A stretch of 64,000 nt of DNA, from NCBI GenBank assembly GCA_013289875.1, contig JABCZC010000001.1, forward strand, positions 1 to 64,000, read 5' to 3'. Shown in pieces: positions 52,380 to 60,510 of this stretch. The notes under the pieces are model-generated. The model was not told the DNA's origin. It ran no database searches and was given only the letters and a program-made list of their open reading frames with translations. This DNA comes from Acidobacteriota bacterium (GTDB lineage: Bacteria > Acidobacteriota > Terriglobia > Terriglobales > Acidobacteriaceae). The translations under genes and the position numbers were made by a program. The stretch's first letter is position 1, and every line of letters starts with the position of its first letter.

Positions 52380-52563
52380 GTTCCCCAAGATGCGGATTTC
52401 CGCGTTCCCAAATGTGTGTTGCCGAAGGCTGCTCTGAAGGGAAAAAGCAACGGGCCGACTCGCGCCCGGGCTCTTAAAAAGCTCCGTAGAAGGGCGATTT
52501 GCCAAATCAAATGGCGTTTTGCAGTTGGCTTGTCTGGTTGTGTGTTACGGAGAACTCAAGGGC

Positions 52564-54132
52564 ATGAACAAGACCCGCGCACAGGAAGGCCCAAACAGCA
52601 GCCTGGACGAGGCGGCAGGACTAGGACCTTGGCCTGCAGAGATGTGCAAGGCGATGATTGAGTCCTCGCCGTGGCCGATGTTTGTCCTCGATTGCGAATT
52701 GCGGTGCGTTGTCGAGGCAAATGGCGCGGCGATCGCAAAATACCAGATGAGCCGGGAGAATTTACGGGCTCGGGGGGTTGAGGAAGTACTGCCGGCCCAT
52801 CGGCGCGCGGAACTGAACCGGCTGCTGGACGCGAGACTGGATGGTCCCGCCCTAGATACGGTCTCCGAACATATCCTCCCCGACCGGACGCTGCTTCCAG
52901 TAGAGGTTCGGTCCTTTCCGCTGCTGTGGAATGACCGCCCATCGCGATTTTTCATGGTTCGCGATCTGCTGCCAAGACCAGCGGCGGGGTGGGATACGAA
53001 ACTGGCAGGAGAAATCGATCTCATCGGGCGAGTTTCGGGATCGGTTGCGCACGACTTCAATAATCTCCTCACGGTGATTCTGGCGGTAGCCGAGCAACTG
53101 CAGGAGGGCGAGGGCGATCCTGAACAGCAGATCGAACTGATTGCGAAGACCGTGCGCAGTGCGCAGGATCTGGCGCATCAACGCTTAAGCCTGGGCGGCA
53201 GCCAGGCAATGCGGCGCGAAAGGCTCGATTTGAATGCGGTCCTGAGTGAGCAGGCAGAAGTGCTCGGAGTCCTGCTCGGCAAGCAGATCGAATTGGAGAT
53301 GGACTTCGATTCGGAATTATGGCCGGTCCTCGCTGACGCGGCGCAATGGCGTGAAGTCGTGCTGAATCTGGCCGTGAATGCGCGCGATGCCATGCCGGAG
53401 GGCGGCAAGCTCTATATCTCGACTCATCATGAGCTGGTGACGTCCGACAACCACGAGCTGGGATTGGCGCGCGGCCGCTACGCGCATCTGGTGGTGCGGG
53501 ATACAGGTCATGGCATGACGGAAGACACTCGTTTGCACGCTTTCAAACCCTACTTTTCGACGAAATCAAGAAGCAGGAATAGCGGCCTGGGCCTGGCATC
53601 AGTGCATGCGGTGGTGCAGCAGAGCGGAGGCAGCATTCGCCTAAGGAGCGCGCCCGGCGAAGGTGCACGCTTCGATATTTTCATCCCCGCTCAGCCGGAA
53701 GAGGCGCAGGAGGTGCCGCAGGGTGGACTCGTACTTCTGGTGGAAGACGCGGACGAGCTGCGCAGGATGATCCAGGATTTCCTGACAGCGCGCGGGTATG
53801 AGGTGATTGCCTGCGGCAGTGCGGAGGTCGCGCTGAAATGGGCGCGAACGCTGGCGCGCAAGCTGGATCTGGTGATCTGCGACCTGATTTTGCCGGATCT
53901 GCCCGGAGATATGCTGATTGAACAGCTTCGCGAGCAGCGTCCTGAAACCAAAGTGATATTCATGTCGGGACAGCATGGGGCCGAAGATGCGATGCAGGCC
54001 GCCGGCGAGGCGTCGGATATAGCGTGCCTGGAGAAGCCCTTCAGCCTGCACCAGCTTGCGCAGACCATTGCAGAAACTTTGGGGAGCGCGGCAGACCCCG
54101 CGCGAGTTGACAGCATCCAAGGTACAGGTTAG
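52564..54132 (+). CDS. Hybrid histidine kinase with PAS and receiver domains
   Basis: A 522-residue soluble kinase. A PAS domain occupies about 25-130 (MFVLDCELRCVVEANGAAIAKYQ). The dimerisation helix has the phosphorylated His in GSVAHDFNNLLTVILA, a form seen in soluble hybrid kinases. The ATPase domain has NLAVNARDAMPEGG (N box), DTGHGM and SGLGLASVHAVV. A C-terminal receiver has acidic residues in LVLLVEDADELRR, Asp in LVICDLILPDLPG and Lys in CLEKPFS. No membrane segment is seen, so it senses a cytoplasmic signal. The 3' end overlaps the his promoter. The single-domain regulator at 10.5 kb could be a partner, with no evidence beyond compatibility. Confidence 0.93.
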   Translation: MNKTRAQEGPNSSLDEAAGLGPWPAEMCKAMIESSPWPMFVLDCELRCVVEANGAAIAKYQMSRENLRARGVEEVLPAHRRAELNRLLDARLDGPALDTVSEHILPDRTLLPVEVRSFPLLWNDRPSRFFMVRDLLPRPAAGWDTKLAGEIDLIGRVSGSVAHDFNNLLTVILAVAEQLQEGEGDPEQQIELIAKTVRSAQDLAHQRLSLGGSQAMRRERLDLNAVLSEQAEVLGVLLGKQIELEMDFDSELWPVLADAAQWREVVLNLAVNARDAMPEGGKLYISTHHELVTSDNHELGLARGRYAHLVVRDTGHGMTEDTRLHAFKPYFSTKSRSRNSGLGLASVHAVVQQSGGSIRLRSAPGEGARFDIFIPAQPEEAQEVPQGGLVLLVEDADELRRMIQDFLTARGYEVIACGSAEVALKWARTLARKLDLVICDLILPDLPGDMLIEQLREQRPETKVIFMSGQHGAEDAMQAAGEASDIACLEKPFSLHQLAQTIAETLGSAADPARVDSIQGTG

Positions 54133-54135
54133 GTT
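54107..54135 (+). promoter_or_regulatory. Predicted his operon promoter
   Basis: TTGACA (54107-54112), a 17-base spacer and TAGGTT (54130-54135), the latter a weak -10. It lies in the last codons of the histidine kinase gene. Transcription would start about 54142, only a few bases before the leader ORF at 54144. Confidence 0.5.
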
Positions 54136-54143
54136 TTCTCTAG

Positions 54144-54227
54144 ATGCGGATTCGCGTTCACTATCGTCATCATCACCATCATCATCACGTGACGAGCGTG
54201 TCGGCGGATCTGCGTGGCTTGAGTTAA
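54144..54227 (+). CDS. hisL: Histidine operon leader peptide
   Basis: A 27-codon frame, too short for ordinary gene calling, in front of the his operon. It reads MRIRVHYR, then seven consecutive His codons (54068-offset positions 54168-54188), then VTSVSADLRGLS and TAA. In all, eight of 27 codons are His. The peptide itself need have no function. Its translation would report the supply of charged His-tRNA: a ribosome stalled on the His run leaves 54201-54211 free to pair with the terminator arm, while a ribosome reaching the stop covers that segment. This is the arrangement known from hisL of enteric bacteria. No clear SD is seen, consistent with an almost leaderless transcript. Confidence 0.85.
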   Translation: MRIRVHYRHHHHHHHVTSVSADLRGLS

Positions 54228-54263
54228 CAGCCTGACTAAGAGATCCTGAGAAAGAGCCCGCCG
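54201..54263 (+). promoter_or_regulatory. Predicted antiterminator pairing of the his leader
   Basis: CGGCGG (54202-54207) can pair with CCGCCG (54258-54263), which is the 5' arm of the terminator, and GGATCT (54206-54211) with AGATCC (54241-54246). The first pairing excludes the terminator stem. The upstream strand lies within the leader ORF, downstream of the His codons, as an attenuation mechanism needs. Confidence 0.6.
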
Positions 54264-54285
54264 GCGAAAGCACTGGCGGGCTTTT
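54255..54285 (+). terminator. Attenuator terminator of the his operon
   Basis: A 10-bp stem AGCCCGCCGG / CTGGCGGGCT with one wobble pair and an eight-base loop, followed by TTTT. It lies 27 bases after the leader stop codon and 31 bases before hisI. It may also end kinase transcripts. Confidence 0.8.
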
Positions 54286-54316
54286 ACATTTGGCGCAATA
54301 ACAAACGGGATAAGGG

Positions 54317-54676
54317 ATGATGAGGGACATACCAATCGATTTCGCGAAGATGGACGGACTGGTTCCGGGTATTGTGCAGGATGCCCGGACGGCAGAAGTG
54401 CTGATGGTCGGGTTTCTGAATGACGAGAGCTATCGTAAAACGCTCGAAACTGGCTTTGTCACATTCTGGAGCCGCACCCGGCAGAAGCTGTGGATGAAAG
54501 GCGAGACCAGCGGTAACCGCCTGCGCGTGATCGATGCGGCTACCGACTGCGATCAGGACACACTGCTGTTTCGAGTGCAGGTGGAGGGCGATGGGCTGGT
54601 TTGCCATGAAGGCACGGTGAGCTGCTTCACGCGACCGATTCCTGTCGGTGCGACGGTCGAAGGAGAAGTACGCTGA
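54317..54676 (+). CDS. hisI: Phosphoribosyl-AMP cyclohydrolase
   Basis: A 119-residue HisI that opens the purine ring of phosphoribosyl-AMP in histidine synthesis. The metal ligands are in [11 protein letters not shown] (three Asp for Mg) and in the pair of Cys in [11 protein letters not shown] (zinc), together with an upstream Cys. The substrate motif [21 protein letters not shown] is typical. No HisE pyrophosphohydrolase domain is fused, and no hisE lies in the operon. It is the first structural gene after the attenuator. Tandem ATGs at 54317 and 54320 are both possible starts. The stop overlaps the hisG start by one base. Confidence 0.96.
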
Positions 54677-55551
54677 TGGCGAACAAGCTGCGGTTGGGAA
54701 TTCCTAAGGGAAGCTTGCAGGATGCAACCATCTCGCTGTTCGAACGCGCGGGCTGGCGGATTTTTGCTAACGGGCGATCGTATTTTCCTTCGGTCGACGA
54801 TGCCGAGATCGAGTGCATGCTGATTCGCGCGCAGGAGATGACCCGGTATGTCGATCACGGCGTTCTGGACGCGGGACTGACGGGCATCGACTGGGTGGTA
54901 GAAAGCGCACTGGATGTAAAGAGCGTGACCAGCCTGACGTACGCGAAGCAGAGCCGCACCAAAGTGCGCTGGGTGCTGGCCGTTCCCGAGGATTCCCCGT
55001 TTGAGCGGGCGGAGGATTTGAGCGGCAGGATTATTGCCACCGAGCTGGTGGAAGTGACGAAGAAGTATTTTGCCGCTAAGAACGTGCCGGTTAAGGTGGA
55101 CTTCAGCTGGGGCGCGACCGAGGTGAAGCCTCCCATGCTGGCCGATGCGATTGTGGAGGTGACGGAGACGGGCAGCTCGCTGCGCGCCAACCGGCTGCGC
55201 ATTATCGACACGGTGATGGAAAGCGAAACGCACCTGATTGCGAATCATGCGGCCTACGAGAACCCGTGGAAGAAGCAGAAAATCGATAGCCTGGCTTTGA
55301 TGCTGAACGCGGCGATTTTCGCACAGGGACGCGTCGGCCTCATCCTCAATGTGGAGAAGGTGAATCTACCAGCCGTGCTGGCCGTCTTGCCAGCGCTCAA
55401 TTCTCCTACCGTATCGGAGCTATCCGATCCGGCCTGGGTGGCGCTGAATACGATTCTCGAGGAAGGCGTCGTGCGCGAGGTGGTGCCCAAGCTCAAGGCG
55501 GCAAAAGCAACAGGGATTGTCGAGTATCCGCTAAACAAGGTGGTGCTGTAG
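54676..55551 (+). CDS. hisG: ATP phosphoribosyltransferase, long form
   Basis: A 291-residue HisG catalysing the first, committed step (ATP plus PRPP). The catalytic lobes begin with [23 protein letters not shown]; the PRPP loop is in [14 protein letters not shown]. The C-terminal domain from about 215 ([29 protein letters not shown]) is the PII-like regulatory domain of the long form, which binds histidine, so no HisZ partner is needed. Feedback inhibition by histidine would add to the transcriptional attenuation. It overlaps hisI by one base. Confidence 0.96.
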
Positions 55552-55554
55552 ATC

Positions 55555-56811
55555 ATGAAGATGATCTCGACAATCCGACGCGGCGCGAAGGCGCGGATCG
55601 CCGAGCTGATTGCGCGGCGGAGTAATACCTACGAGCGCGCCATGCCCGCAGCGCGGCGCATCGTTGAGGGTGTGCGCGAGGGAGGCGATGTGGCCCTTCG
55701 CCGCTATGCTGCTCAGCTTGATCATCTTTCGCCACAGATACCGTTACATATTACAAGACATGAGTTGACAACAGCATGGGAGGCAACTCCCCCTCCACTT
55801 CAGCGTGCTTTGCAGGTGGCGGCGAGGAACATCCGAGCATTTGCCGAACGGCAACGTCCGCGGGATTGGGACTTCGCCCCGGTGCGCGGGGTGACGGTGG
55901 GGCAACGGATTTGTCCTATTTGTGCTGTTGGCTGTTACGTACCCAGCGGCCGCTATCCGCTGCCCTCTACGCTGCTGATGACGGTGATTCCGGCGCAGGT
56001 GGCGGGAGTGGAACGGATAGTCGTGGCGTCTCCCAGGCCAGCGAAGGAGACTCTGGCTGCAGCGGCGATGCTGGGCGTGACGGAGTTCTACCGCATCGGC
56101 GGAGCGCAGGCGATCGCGGCGCTGGCCTACGGAACACAAAGCATTTCATGTGTAGACAAGATCGTCGGACCGGGCAATGCGTATGTGACAGCGGCGAAGA
56201 AGCTGGTGGCCTTCGATTGCGCGATCGACATGCTCGCCGGACCGACAGAGATTGTGGTGACCAGCGAGAAGGGCAATGCGGACTGGATTGCCGCTGATCT
56301 CATCGCACAGGCCGAACACGATCCGGACGCGCTGGCGATCTTCGTGACGAGTACGGCTTCCCTGGCACAGGCCGTGGTTGCTGAGGTGAAAACACAGATG
56401 CAATCGAACCCGACCGCTGCGGAGGCGATCTCACGCAGCGGGATGGTCATCGTGGCGGCGACCGTGGAAGAAGCGCATGAGATTACAAATCGGTTCGCGC
56501 CTGAGCATCTGACCGTCGATAGCGAGGCCGACCTGGCCTGGGTAAAGAATGCAGGGTCCGTGTTTGTCGGACCCTATTCTGCGCAGTCGCTGGGAGACTA
56601 CGTTTCCGGACCGAATCACACGCTGCCGACGGGCGGCCTGGCGCGGGTACGCGGCGGGTTGAGCGTGATGGACTTCGTAAAGGTAATCACCGTGCAAGAA
56701 TACAAACCCGAAGGCCTGCGGCAGTTAGGCCCGGCAGCGATAGCACTGGCCGAAGCCGAGGGATTGCACGGACATGCGACGGCGATTCGCTTGAGGGGCA
56801 TCCATGAATAG
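55555..56811 (+). CDS. hisD: Histidinol dehydrogenase
   Basis: A 418-residue HisD that oxidises histidinol to histidine with two NAD, the last step of the pathway. The core signature is VDKIVGPGNAYVTAAKKLVAF followed by IDMLAGPTEIVV. The active-site zinc ligands are within IAQAEHDPDA, GPNHTLPTGG and ATEGLHGHA-like (here AEGLHGHATAIRLR). The start lies three bases after the hisG stop, and the end overlaps hisC by eight bases. Confidence 0.96.
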   Translation: MKMISTIRRGAKARIAELIARRSNTYERAMPAARRIVEGVREGGDVALRRYAAQLDHLSPQIPLHITRHELTTAWEATPPPLQRALQVAARNIRAFAERQRPRDWDFAPVRGVTVGQRICPICAVGCYVPSGRYPLPSTLLMTVIPAQVAGVERIVVASPRPAKETLAAAAMLGVTEFYRIGGAQAIAALAYGTQSISCVDKIVGPGNAYVTAAKKLVAFDCAIDMLAGPTEIVVTSEKGNADWIAADLIAQAEHDPDALAIFVTSTASLAQAVVAEVKTQMQSNPTAAEAISRSGMVIVAATVEEAHEITNRFAPEHLTVDSEADLAWVKNAGSVFVGPYSAQSLGDYVSGPNHTLPTGGLARVRGGLSVMDFVKVITVQEYKPEGLRQLGPAAIALAEAEGLHGHATAIRLRGIHE

Positions 56812-57898
56812 CGTCAGAACGCAGGGCCCGCAGCCGCGCGAACTGATTCGGCGAATGAGGGAGTATCACCCCCCCTTGGGCGATCGCAGCGGGTTGCGGC
56901 TGGACTTCAACGAGAATACTTTGGCCTGTTCGCCTCGTGTGCTGGAGGTCCTGGGGCAGATCTCGCGTGCCGAGTTGACAATGTATCCCGAGCGCGAGCC
57001 GGCCGAGCGCTTGATCGCGGATCATCTGAAGCTGAAGCCCGCGCAGGTGTTGCTGACAAACGGCGTGGACGAGGCGATTCATGTCCTCTGCCAGACCTAC
57101 CTGGGCGCGGGCGATGAAGTGTTGCTGCCGGTGCCGACGTATTCAATGTATGCGGTGTACGCATCAGGGACAGACGCGAAGCTGGTCGAAGTGCAGACGG
57201 ATGCAGACTTCCGTTTCCCTCTTGAGGCGCTGCTTGCGAAGATCACTCCGGCGACGAAGGTGATAGCGATAGCGAATCCCAATAGCCCCACGGGGCAGGT
57301 GGTGCAGCGCGACGATATTTTGCGCGTGGTCGAGGCAGCACCGCAGGCAGTGGTGCTCGTAGACGAAGCCTATTTCCATTTCTACGGGCAAACGGTCATC
57401 GATTTAGTCGGGCGCGTGCCAAATGTAATCGTGATGCGCACATTTTCCAAAGCATATGGTCTGGCGGGGCTGCGGCTGGGCGTCCTGGCTGCCGACGAGG
57501 AGCAGATGCGGTGGATGCGGCGGGTGATTTCTCCCTACAGCGTCAACTCTCTGGCACTGGCGTGCCTGCCGGCGGCGATTGGCGATCAGGCTTACATCGA
57601 TTGGTATGCGGACGATGTTCTGGCCGCTCGCGGAGAGTTTACTGCGGCTCTCGATCGGATGGACGTGCGGTACTGGCCTTCCGAAGCGAATTTTGTTCTG
57701 ACACACATTGGCCCCTCGCATGCCGAGTTCTGCCGTGCGATGCGTGAACGCGGCGTTCTGGTGCGGGACCGGTCGGCCGATCCCGGGTGCGACGGGTGCG
57801 TGCGCATCACCATCGGCACGCGCAAGCATATGCAGCGCGGCGTGCTGGCGATGGAAGAGTGCCTGCGCGAAATCGAATGGATGGGAGACGCCGAGTGA
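56804..57898 (+). CDS. hisC: Histidinol-phosphate aminotransferase
   Basis: A 364-residue fold-type I PLP aminotransferase of the HisC family. It begins with [13 protein letters not shown], the family's substrate segment, has [12 protein letters not shown], then VDEAYFHF for PLP, and the Schiff-base Lys in [14 protein letters not shown]. It converts imidazole acetol phosphate to histidinol phosphate. The stop overlaps the GTG start of hisB by four bases (GTGA). Confidence 0.95.
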
Positions 57899-58494
57899 CG
57901 AAGTCAAAGCGAACCGGCACAGTCGATCGCAAGACGGCGGAGACAGAGATCCATCTGCGGCTGACGATCGAAGGCGCGGGGCGTTACGCGGTTTCGACCG
58001 GCATCAGGTTTTTCGATCACATGCTGGAGTTGTTTGCTCGGCATGGGGCGTTCGATCTCGACCTGACGTGCAAGGGCGATCTGGATGTGGACCAGCATCA
58101 CACGGTGGAGGACGTCGGCATCGCATTAGGCGAGGCCGTTGACAAGGCGCTCGGCGATAAGCGTGGCATTTTGCGAGCCGGATATTTTCTGATGACGATG
58201 GACGAGACCCTGGGCCTGGCGGCGATCGATCTGAGCGGCCGCTCGGCCTGCGTGGTGGACACGAAGGTCAGGACGCGGCTCGTTGGCGATTTGCAGACAG
58301 AGCTTGTCGAAGATTTCTTCGAGGGATTTTCACGCGGTGCGCGCGCGAATGTTCATTTGAAGACAATGTACGGGCGTTCGAATCATCACAAGATAGAGGC
58401 ACTGTTTAAGGCCTTTGCGCGGGCGCTAAGGGTCGCGTGTTCACGTGACGAGCAGTTGGGCGAGATGTTGCCCAGCACAAAAGGCCTGCTGTGA
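57895..58494 (+). CDS. hisB: Imidazoleglycerol-phosphate dehydratase
   Basis: A 199-residue monofunctional HisB. Metal motifs are [25 protein letters not shown], and [17 protein letters not shown]. The phosphatase domain fused to HisB in enteric bacteria is absent, so histidinol-phosphate phosphatase must be encoded elsewhere. The start is GTG 57895, overlapping hisC, and the stop overlaps the GTG start of hisH by four bases. Confidence 0.96.
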
Positions 58495-59087
58495 TTGCGG
58501 TCGTCGATTACAAGGCGGGGAATCTGACCTCGGTGATGAAGGCGCTAAGGGCCGTCTGTGTGGAGGCCGAGGCGACGGAAGATCCGAATGTAGTGAGGCG
58601 CGCAGAAAAGATTGTGTTGCCGGGCGTGGGACACTTTCAGGCCACAGCATTTCTGGAACGGCGCGGATTGCGGGAAGCGATAGAGGAGCGGATCGCGCAG
58701 GGTGTGCCGTTTCTCGGAATTTGCGTAGGCCTGCAGTGGCTCTATCGCGGAAGCACTGAAGCTCCCGGCAGCCGTGGCCTCGCAGCATTCGATGGGATCT
58801 GCGATCGGTTTGTGGGGGGCAAGAAGGTTCCGCACGTGGGATGGAATTCTCTGGTCGTGCAGCAGAATTCGCGGCTGCTGCGTGGAGTCGAGACGGGGGA
58901 TTTTGTGTATTTTACTCACTCCTACAGGGCTCCCGTGCTTCATGACACCGTGGCAGTTACAGAGTATGGCGAGGCGTTCACGTCGGCCGCTGAGCGCGCA
59001 AATGTGATGGGAGTTCAGTTCCACCCGGAGAAATCCGGAATGGCGGGTTTGCGCATACTGCGCAACTTCGTGGAGCTGGAATGCTGA
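58491..59087 (+). CDS. hisH: Imidazole glycerol phosphate synthase, glutaminase subunit
   Basis: A 198-residue class I glutamine amidotransferase. The catalytic triad is Cys in [13 protein letters not shown], and His and Glu in [10 protein letters not shown]. It starts with the characteristic [14 protein letters not shown]. It passes ammonia to HisF, encoded by the next gene, which overlaps by seven bases. The start codon is GTG. Confidence 0.96.
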
Positions 59088-59842
59088 CCAAGCGGATTAT
59101 TGCCTGCCTTGACGTCACCGCTGGCAGAGTCGTCAAGGGTGTGCAGTTCGTCGATCTTATTGACGCGGGCGATCCTGCGGAATTGGCCTCACGGCACGCG
59201 GAGGCAGGGGCAGATGAGATTGTCCTGCTGGATATTTCCGCCACGCACGAAGGCCGCGGAACGCTGCTCGATACGGTCCGCCGGACATCACAGCGATTGT
59301 TCGTTCCGTTTACCGTCGGGGGCGGCGTGAGGACTCTTGAGGATGCGGCTGCGGTCTTCGATGCAGGCGCGGATAAGGTGAGCGTCAACTCAGCTGCGTT
59401 CCGTAGGCCGGAGCTGATCGACGAGATTGGCGCGCGGTTCGGAGCGCAGGCGGTGATTGTGGCCATCGACGCGAGGCGAACGAATTACGGCGCCGAGGTT
59501 TTTGTCGAGGGAGGACGCAAGGCTACCGGACGCAAAGCTCTGGACTGGGCGCTCGAGGCAGAGCAACGCGGCGCCGGGGAGATTCTGTTGACTTCGATGG
59601 ATGCAGATGGGACACAGGTAGGCTTCGATTGCGAGCTGACGGCTGCCGTGAGCGACGCCGTGCAGATTCCTGTGATTGCTTCAGGAGGCGCAGGGAATGC
59701 GCGGCATTTCTCCGACGTGTTCCTCCGCGGAAAAGCGGACGCGGCGCTGGCAGCGAGCATTTTTCACTTCGGCATCTCAGATGCGCGAGCTTTGAAAGAA
59801 GAGATCGCGCGGGACGGTGTACCGGTGCGGCTGCCATGCTGA
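59081..59842 (+). CDS. hisF: Imidazole glycerol phosphate synthase, cyclase subunit
   Basis: A 253-residue TIM barrel. The catalytic Asp is in [16 protein letters not shown] and the second in [13 protein letters not shown]; phosphate sites are GGGVRT and ASGGAGN. With HisH it forms imidazole glycerol phosphate and AICAR. The gene overlaps hisH by seven bases and hisA by seven. Confidence 0.97.
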
Positions 59843-60510
59843 TTCCTTCGATCGATTTAATGGGCGGGCGCATTGTGCAACTGGTGCGGGGCGCGGAAAT
59901 CAAGCTTGCCTTTGACGATTTCGAGTATTGGATCGACCGCTTTTCGTCTTATCCCATGGTTCAGTTGATTGACTTGGATGCGGCGATGCGACGTCGCGAC
60001 AACGCTTCGTTGATCGGGAAGATCGCGAAGCGGCTGCCGTGCCAGGTGGGCGGGGGGATTCGGACGCCGGAGCAGGCGAGAATGCTGCTGGACTCCGGCG
60101 CGCGGCGCGTCATCCTTGGGTCGGTGCTGTTCGGCCCGACGGGGGTCGATACAAAAGTGGCGGAATTGCTGGGAGCGGCGATCGGGCGTGAGCAATTTGT
60201 AGCCAGCATTGATACAAAAGAAGGAAGAGTCGCGGTTCGTGGGTGGAAGGAGACCGTCGATCTGACACCGGAGCAGGCAATTCAGACGCTCGATCCATAT
60301 TGCGGCGCATTTCTCTACACGCATGTGGATACGGAGGGAACGATGCAAGGCTTTCCGTTTGAGCGCGCACGGACCTTGCGCGGTTTGACGTTGCGGCGGC
60401 TCATTGTAGCCGGAGGAATTCGCGAACAAACCGAGATCGACGCCTTGGACGCGATTGGCGTTGATGCGGTCGCGGGAATGGCGGTGTATACAGGGTTGCT
60501 GGCTACTTAA
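59836..60510 (+). CDS. hisA: ProFAR isomerase
   Basis: A 224-residue TIM barrel, somewhat shorter than the usual 240-245. The catalytic Asp is in [15 protein letters not shown], the second Asp in [16 protein letters not shown], and [20 protein letters not shown] and VAGGI give the family phosphate and substrate sites. It isomerises the aminoaldose intermediate before HisF. I take ATG 59836, which overlaps hisF; a longer frame from 59629 is a shadow of hisF. The 3' end overlaps a small convergent gene by eight bases. Confidence 0.94.

Follow-up and report, generated by a model that had tools for sequence, protein, structure and literature searches.

A probable ribosome-mediated histidine attenuator on a predicted leaderless transcript in Acidobacteriota

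In a member of the Acidobacteriota, bacteria that are abundant in soil, the histidine biosynthesis operon is very probably controlled by a ribosome-mediated transcription attenuator whose transcript is predicted to be leaderless or nearly so. Here, we describe this attenuator in a 64,000-nucleotide stretch of DNA, which we refer to as “the window”, and in related genomes. In the window, a 27-codon frame encoding MRIRVHYRHHHHHHHVTSVSADLRGLS* is followed by a terminator and then by eight his genes (Table 1). These parts are conserved upstream of hisI in relatives, and two competing helices covary. Judging from the sequences, the run of His codons at the start of the RNA probably lets the bacteria switch on histidine synthesis only under histidine scarcity. 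Ribosome-mediated attenuation is already a known mechanism, and it also occurs on leaderless transcripts in Actinobacteria and Sinorhizobium. A literature search that took in few subscription papers and no supplements found no description of a his attenuator in Acidobacteriota, and according to a 2010 survey, almost no predicted attenuator of this phylum had an assigned function (PMC2965389). The leader described here gives a likely function to one Acidobacteriota attenuator, which is spread across many families of the phylum.

We propose the following mechanism. RNA polymerase would begin transcription at or near the A of the leader start codon. Without a Shine-Dalgarno sequence, a ribosome would load onto the 5′ end of the RNA. 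When charged His-tRNA is scarce, the ribosome would stall on the His run; region 2 (54200–54207) would then be free to pair with region 3 (54258–54265), meaning that the terminator could not form and the eight his genes would be transcribed. When histidine is plentiful, the ribosome would reach the stop codon, and region 2 would be either covered or held in the 1:2 hairpin. Region 3 would then pair with region 4, and transcription would stop at about position 54285.

Table 1. Features of the his leader and operon, in coordinates of the window
Feature	Position	Strand	Basis
−35 box TTGACA	54107..54112	+	sequence; TTGAC at −45 to −33 from leader ATG in 159/170 leaders
−10 box TAGGTT (17-nt spacer; 8 nt to leader ATG)	54130..54135	+	sequence; TTGAC + 15–19 nt + TAnnnT in 154/170
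Leader peptide ORF, MRIRVHYRHHHHHHHVTSVSADLRGLS*	54144..54227	+	sequence; His-rich short ORF in 170/175 distinct upstream regions
Predicted 1:2 hairpin (regions 1 and 2 paired), includes start codon	54144..54215	+	MFE
Seven consecutive His control codons (eighth at 54159–54161)	54168..54188	+	sequence
Region 2, antiterminator 5′ side	54200..54207	+	covariation with region 3
Region 3, antiterminator 3′ side, part of terminator 5′ arm	54258..54265	+	covariation
Intrinsic terminator (3:4 stem 54256–54281; T run TTTT 54282–54285)	54256..54285	+	folding; covariation
Regulated operon hisI-hisG-hisD-hisC-hisB-hisH-hisF-hisA	54317..60510	+	NCBIfam and Pfam matches

The leader ORF is conserved among relatives. 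We collected 186 hisI loci: one from a search of the window's own genome (L001), 30 plus 75 further stretches, and 80 named loci, including Acidipila rosea, Terriglobus roseus, Edaphobacter, and Granulicella. Together, these loci hold 175 distinct upstream regions. With a His-rich ORF defined as one having at least four His codons within 11 codons behind the start codon, such a short ORF was found in 170 of the 175 regions, and in 170 of the 171 that extend at least 200 nt. Four of the remaining five have <200 nt upstream, which is too short to judge; the fifth, L109, lacks a His-rich ORF. Among control sequences made from the 170 regions, the same definition was satisfied by only 2 of 170 reverse complements and, after dinucleotide shuffling, by 23 of 850. 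Because the His-rich ORF is kept so widely, we conclude that the His leader is not a product of chance. The longest His run per leader has a median of 5 codons, with a longest run of only 2 in 12 of the 170 leaders, and both His codons are used (732 CAT and 492 CAC). Thus, as is typical of ribosome-mediated attenuators, the amino acid made by the operon is the one whose codons are repeated in a row in a short leader ORF. Two loci have unexpected titles, and mis-binning is possible for both: L109 is titled Prevotella (HisI identity 65%), and L091 is titled Rhodanobacteraceae but has a leader of the Acidobacteriaceae type (HisI identity 75%).

An earlier note, made from the letters of the window, had described a 27-codon frame with seven consecutive His codons plus one more; that frame is indeed present, and the conserved His runs that the note proposed to look for in related Acidobacteriota exist. 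The reading in which a CAY repeat lies by chance beside an unrelated terminator has next to no probability: Tandem Repeats Finder does report a short ATC-type repeat at 54163–54187, but a chance origin is contradicted by the 170 leaders in which the His-rich ORF is conserved and by the covariation seen across 132 sequences.

The second part of the attenuator, the terminator, was likewise described in the earlier note as a hairpin with a T run before hisI, and folding bears this out, with a stem energy of −18.7 kcal/mol for 54256–54281. A consensus scan of the window did not report the terminator at 54256–54285. The window and 163 of 170 leaders have a terminator between the leader and the first structural gene; in the other seven, none was found under the criteria applied. 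Stems of −10 kcal/mol or lower occur in 160 of 170 leaders versus 2 of 170 mononucleotide shuffles. In an alignment of 132 sequences (A1), 92.9% of terminator cells are paired and 61 cells are double-changed, neither value being reached in any of 500 shuffles; four terminator pairs show a double change, a number reached by 6 of 500 shuffles. Between the leader stop codon and the terminator (54230–54255 in the window), many Acidobacteriaceae in A1 have a short purine-rich word, AGAGATC or CAGGATT, as read by eye.

The third part is the antiterminator. An alternative pairing of 54202–54207 with 54258–54263 had been suggested for the window; it is real, and extends to 54200–54207 with 54258–54265. 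In A1, 93.8% of antiterminator cells are paired and 57 are double-changed (0 of 500 shuffles for each), while versions of the pairing slid along the alignment are only 23–52% paired. RNAalifold returned the antiterminator when given no structure. Four antiterminator pairs show a double change, a number reached by 100 of 500 shuffles, and these shuffles ignore relatedness. For this reason, a HisI tree was also used for a parsimony count, which gave 14 pair-keeping double changes for the antiterminator and 19 for the terminator. Region 3 therefore covaries with each of its two partners, a requirement for an attenuator, and the covarying stems proposed as a check on the window are found in related Acidobacteriota for both helices. 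Energies of the best duplex between the post-His stretch and the 5′ half of the terminator point the same way: the mean is −22.98 kcal/mol, while shuffling the stretch gives −15.82 and swapping partners gives −20.45; in 120 of 163 leaders, the duplex is at or below the 5th percentile of its own shuffles. As in other members of the class, then, the antiterminator joins sequence downstream of the control codons to the terminator 5′ arm, and it and the terminator exclude each other.

Conservation after the His run could instead reflect the peptide. The post-His peptide looks conserved, with VSAD and VLAAVSG types, and peTrpL of Sinorhizobium meliloti is reported to act in trans (PMC7298713). A His-rich peptide that acts in trans by binding metal or RNA, with RNA structure secondary, is nevertheless very unlikely: the antiterminator covaries, the downstream genes are his genes, and in five leaders (L026, L091, L152, and the near-identical pair L093 and L131) the frame over the post-His stretch is shifted while the RNA motif is present. 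In these five, the CGGCGG motif of region 2 is read as Cys-Arg-Arg, not Ser-Ala, and in the four that are included in A1 it aligns with the antiterminator columns. Since the motif persists where the frame over it has shifted, the constraint is on the RNA rather than on the peptide, and we reject peptide conservation after the His run as the main constraint.

Ribosome stalling was modeled with a ribosome footprint placed on about the third His codon; the regions used are the best-pairing ones, a choice that favors pairing in all three states. Of 163 leaders, the share expected to form at least five antiterminator pairs is 98% with a stalled ribosome, 55% with a ribosome at the stop codon, and 67% with no ribosome. 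Going from the stop state to the stalled state, the expected number of pairs rises by at least 2 in 104 of the 163 leaders and falls by that much in none; relative to no ribosome, stalling gives more pairs in 64 leaders and fewer in 1. For the window itself, the expected number of antiterminator pairs is 10.7 in the stalled state, 7.8 in the stop state, and 0.03 in the ribosome-free state. According to the footprint model, then, a ribosome parked on the stop codon of this leader leaves region 2 mostly free, which would mean that termination when histidine is plentiful needs the 1:2 hairpin to re-form after ribosome release, or depends on kinetics.

The 1:2 hairpin is strong in the minimum free energy structure of the window. 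Among relatives, it is poorly conserved, with 63.3% of cells paired; the mean folding z is −1.56. The start codon, which is part of this hairpin, has a pairing probability of 0.89 in the window versus a mean of 0.24 in the family and 0.39 in shuffles; it exceeds 0.8 in only 5 of 170 leaders, so occlusion in the window is not typical of its relatives. In Corynebacterium glutamicum ilvBNC, hairpin H1 is said to block translation initiation (PMC11857589). As a mechanism for the family, start-codon occlusion permitting a single round of ribosome loading was rejected on the basis of the 0.24 paired as compared to 0.39 in shuffles.

The predicted transcription start of the window leader, read from its promoter boxes, is at about 54142–54144. 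A consensus promoter scan of the window reported no promoter because its rule demands four of six matches in each box; the boxes were read by eye instead. In 159 of 170 leaders, TTGAC occurs 33–45 nt ahead of the leader ATG; from how often it occurs further upstream, 0.008 per leader would be expected. In the 154 leaders where TTGAC is followed after 15–19 nt by TAnnnT, the gap from TAnnnT to the ATG is 8–10 nt in 116 and 11–19 nt in 23. Transcription starts 6–8 nt after a −10 box; the 5′ UTR would therefore mostly be 0 to about 4 nt. Because of the position of TTGAC, we predict that the leader peptide is read from a leaderless or nearly leaderless end. Duplexes with the anti-Shine-Dalgarno sequence have a mean energy of −1.16 kcal/mol at the leader versus −3.81 at hisI, and are below −4 kcal/mol in 13% of leaders versus 49% at hisI; these values, and the lack of a Shine-Dalgarno sequence before the start codon that is characteristic of leaderless genes, apply to the leader set as a whole rather than to the window singly. 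The suggestion, already made for the window, that the leader may be translated from a leaderless end is thus supported by promoter spacing in 170 leaders and by a Shine-Dalgarno signal weaker than at hisI.

A variant in which the attenuator works but transcription starts further upstream, with an ordinary ribosome-binding site for the leader, is unlikely. It would suit the 23 leaders with gaps of 11–19 nt and the 13% with the stronger anti-Shine-Dalgarno duplexes, the start being placed by promoter geometry alone; against it stand the position of TTGAC in 159 leaders, the difference in mean duplex energy between leader and hisI, and start codons that are more open than in shuffles. Leaderless genes have been predicted at about 13% in three Acidobacteria (PMC3160421). 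A leaderless his leader would extend leaderless initiation as an attenuator input to a phylum beyond the reported Actinobacteria and Sinorhizobium. A gene for a hybrid histidine kinase/response regulator (52519–54132) has its 3′ end within the his promoter.

Matches to NCBIfam and Pfam establish all eight genes of the his operon that the earlier note had placed behind the leader. The hisA gene seems to overlap the end of hisF, with its start read from the sequence. A search of the window's own genome with a covariance model of the leader found no second his attenuator (next match, E 0.11).

Enteric his leaders are longer and contain multiple hairpins. Korolev (2015, a conference paper) reportedly searched for His-containing leader peptides in Actinobacteria. 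Enteric hisL (RF00514) shares with the window leader a run of His codons, a terminator, an antiterminator, and a his operon; unlike hisL, the window leader is predicted to be leaderless and has one antiterminator helix, formed by the post-His region 2 and the terminator arm. The Rfam model of His_leader, RF00514, scores 29.8 bits in the window (E 0.0037), below its gathering score of 49, and at gathering it matches 0 of 20 relatives. Proteobacteria and some Firmicutes have His attenuators (PMC9413887). Those of Firmicutes have the same kind of peptide, with 3–5 His codons, and a terminator and antiterminator before his operons; they belong to another phylum, and the parts of that article available to us do not mention leaderless starts. 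Leaderless leader peptides are reported from Streptomyces (S. lividans trpL, ilvL, and leuL; PMC8079986), Corynebacterium (C. glutamicum ilvBNC; PMC11857589), and Sinorhizobium (S. meliloti trpL; PMC7298713), with transcripts that start at or next to the leader ATG. In these leaders, as described there, leader translation sets termination; the amino acids and phyla are different. A T-box or metabolite riboswitch in place of ribosome stalling is extremely unlikely for the window. While his genes are under T-box control in Firmicutes (PMC9413887), no Rfam family reaches its gathering score in the window, the best of 15 weak Rfam matches is His_leader with no T-box among them, and the leader is only about 145 nt, much of which is the His ORF.

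The leader extends beyond the family of the window. At E ≤ 0.01, the covariance model has matches in 65 of 297 Acidobacteriota genomes, 29 from the window's family and 36 from outside it. The outside-family genomes contribute 40 matches, of which 34 stretches were examined. An ORF with at least four His codons is present in 23 of these stretches. A his gene follows in 22 of the 34: a HisI match comes directly after 18 of them, hisG after two, and hisD after two; the other 12 were not shown to precede a his gene. The 22 his-gene leaders come from 12 families other than that of the window. The 23rd stretch with a His ORF, L244, precedes a prephenate dehydratase gene. Of 40 further chosen hisI upstream regions from outside the family, the leader is present in seven, which add no new family, and absent from 33, where hisI may not be the first gene.

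The covariance model also led to candidate leaders for Arg and for the aspartate family. There is an even chance, in our estimation, that the window belongs to a phylum-wide set of leaderless leader-peptide attenuators built on one plan for different amino acids. In such a set, histidine would be sensed ahead of hisI, hisG, or hisD, arginine ahead of argC, and amino acids of the aspartate family ahead of asd, with Cys and Phe as possible further members. The common plan would consist of a TTGACA-type promoter by the leader ATG, control codons, a GC-rich region 2, and a terminator of the CCCGC..GCGGG type.

The argC (TIGR01850) and asd (TIGR00978) leaders were reached via weak, partial matches of the covariance model. 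In family f39, 10 of 11 argC loci (L322–L331; identity to the query ≥65% in each) have an ORF with 6–7 Arg codons, a TTGACA ... TAnnnT promoter with the ATG 9–14 nt past TAnnnT, and a terminator; the eleventh, L346 (38% identity), lacks an Arg leader. In each of the ten, pairing between the stretch after the Arg codons and the terminator arm beats that of at least 185 of 200 shuffles. We consider these leaders to be a candidate arginine attenuator, nearly leaderless by its predicted promoter. The other 19 argC-like loci, from other families, have no such leader, and the literature search for Arg leaders found none. Among 29 asd loci (L368–L396), 18 have some short ORF and a terminator, and eight of these have TTG[AC] at a leaderless distance. 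Many asd leaders are, by eye, rich in Thr, Met, Lys, or Ile codons, e.g., MTRTITITVTTRKRELDSARGWLVYAS in L372, with a Met-rich type in L386, L387, and L394; from their codon content, they are candidate aspartate-family attenuators. In the window's genus and its close relatives, 28 of 30 asd and argC loci were placed, and none has a convincing leader; L406 and L424, from this group, have a short ORF before a hairpin. A crude scan of the window's genus (seven trpE, six leuA, and five ilvB loci), in which some gene starts may be wrong (e.g., L303), found no Leu or Ile/Val leader, and at trpE only four ORFs with at least two Trp codons, which do not resemble one another.

Other amino acids appear in single loci. 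In genome G271, L238 and L250 have Cys runs (CACC and CVCCC) before terminators, and L250 precedes a sulphur transporter gene (Pfam Sulf_transp), an arrangement reminiscent of mycobacterial poly-Cys leaders. Mycobacterial Cys leaders are said to be leaderless leader-peptide attenuators (Canestrari 2020), for another amino acid and in another phylum. Four more distant homologues lack the Cys leader. In L244 (genome G157), a short ORF containing WRYFYFSFF and a terminator are located directly before the prephenate dehydratase gene (L244:413–1273), making this a candidate Phe/Tyr leader.
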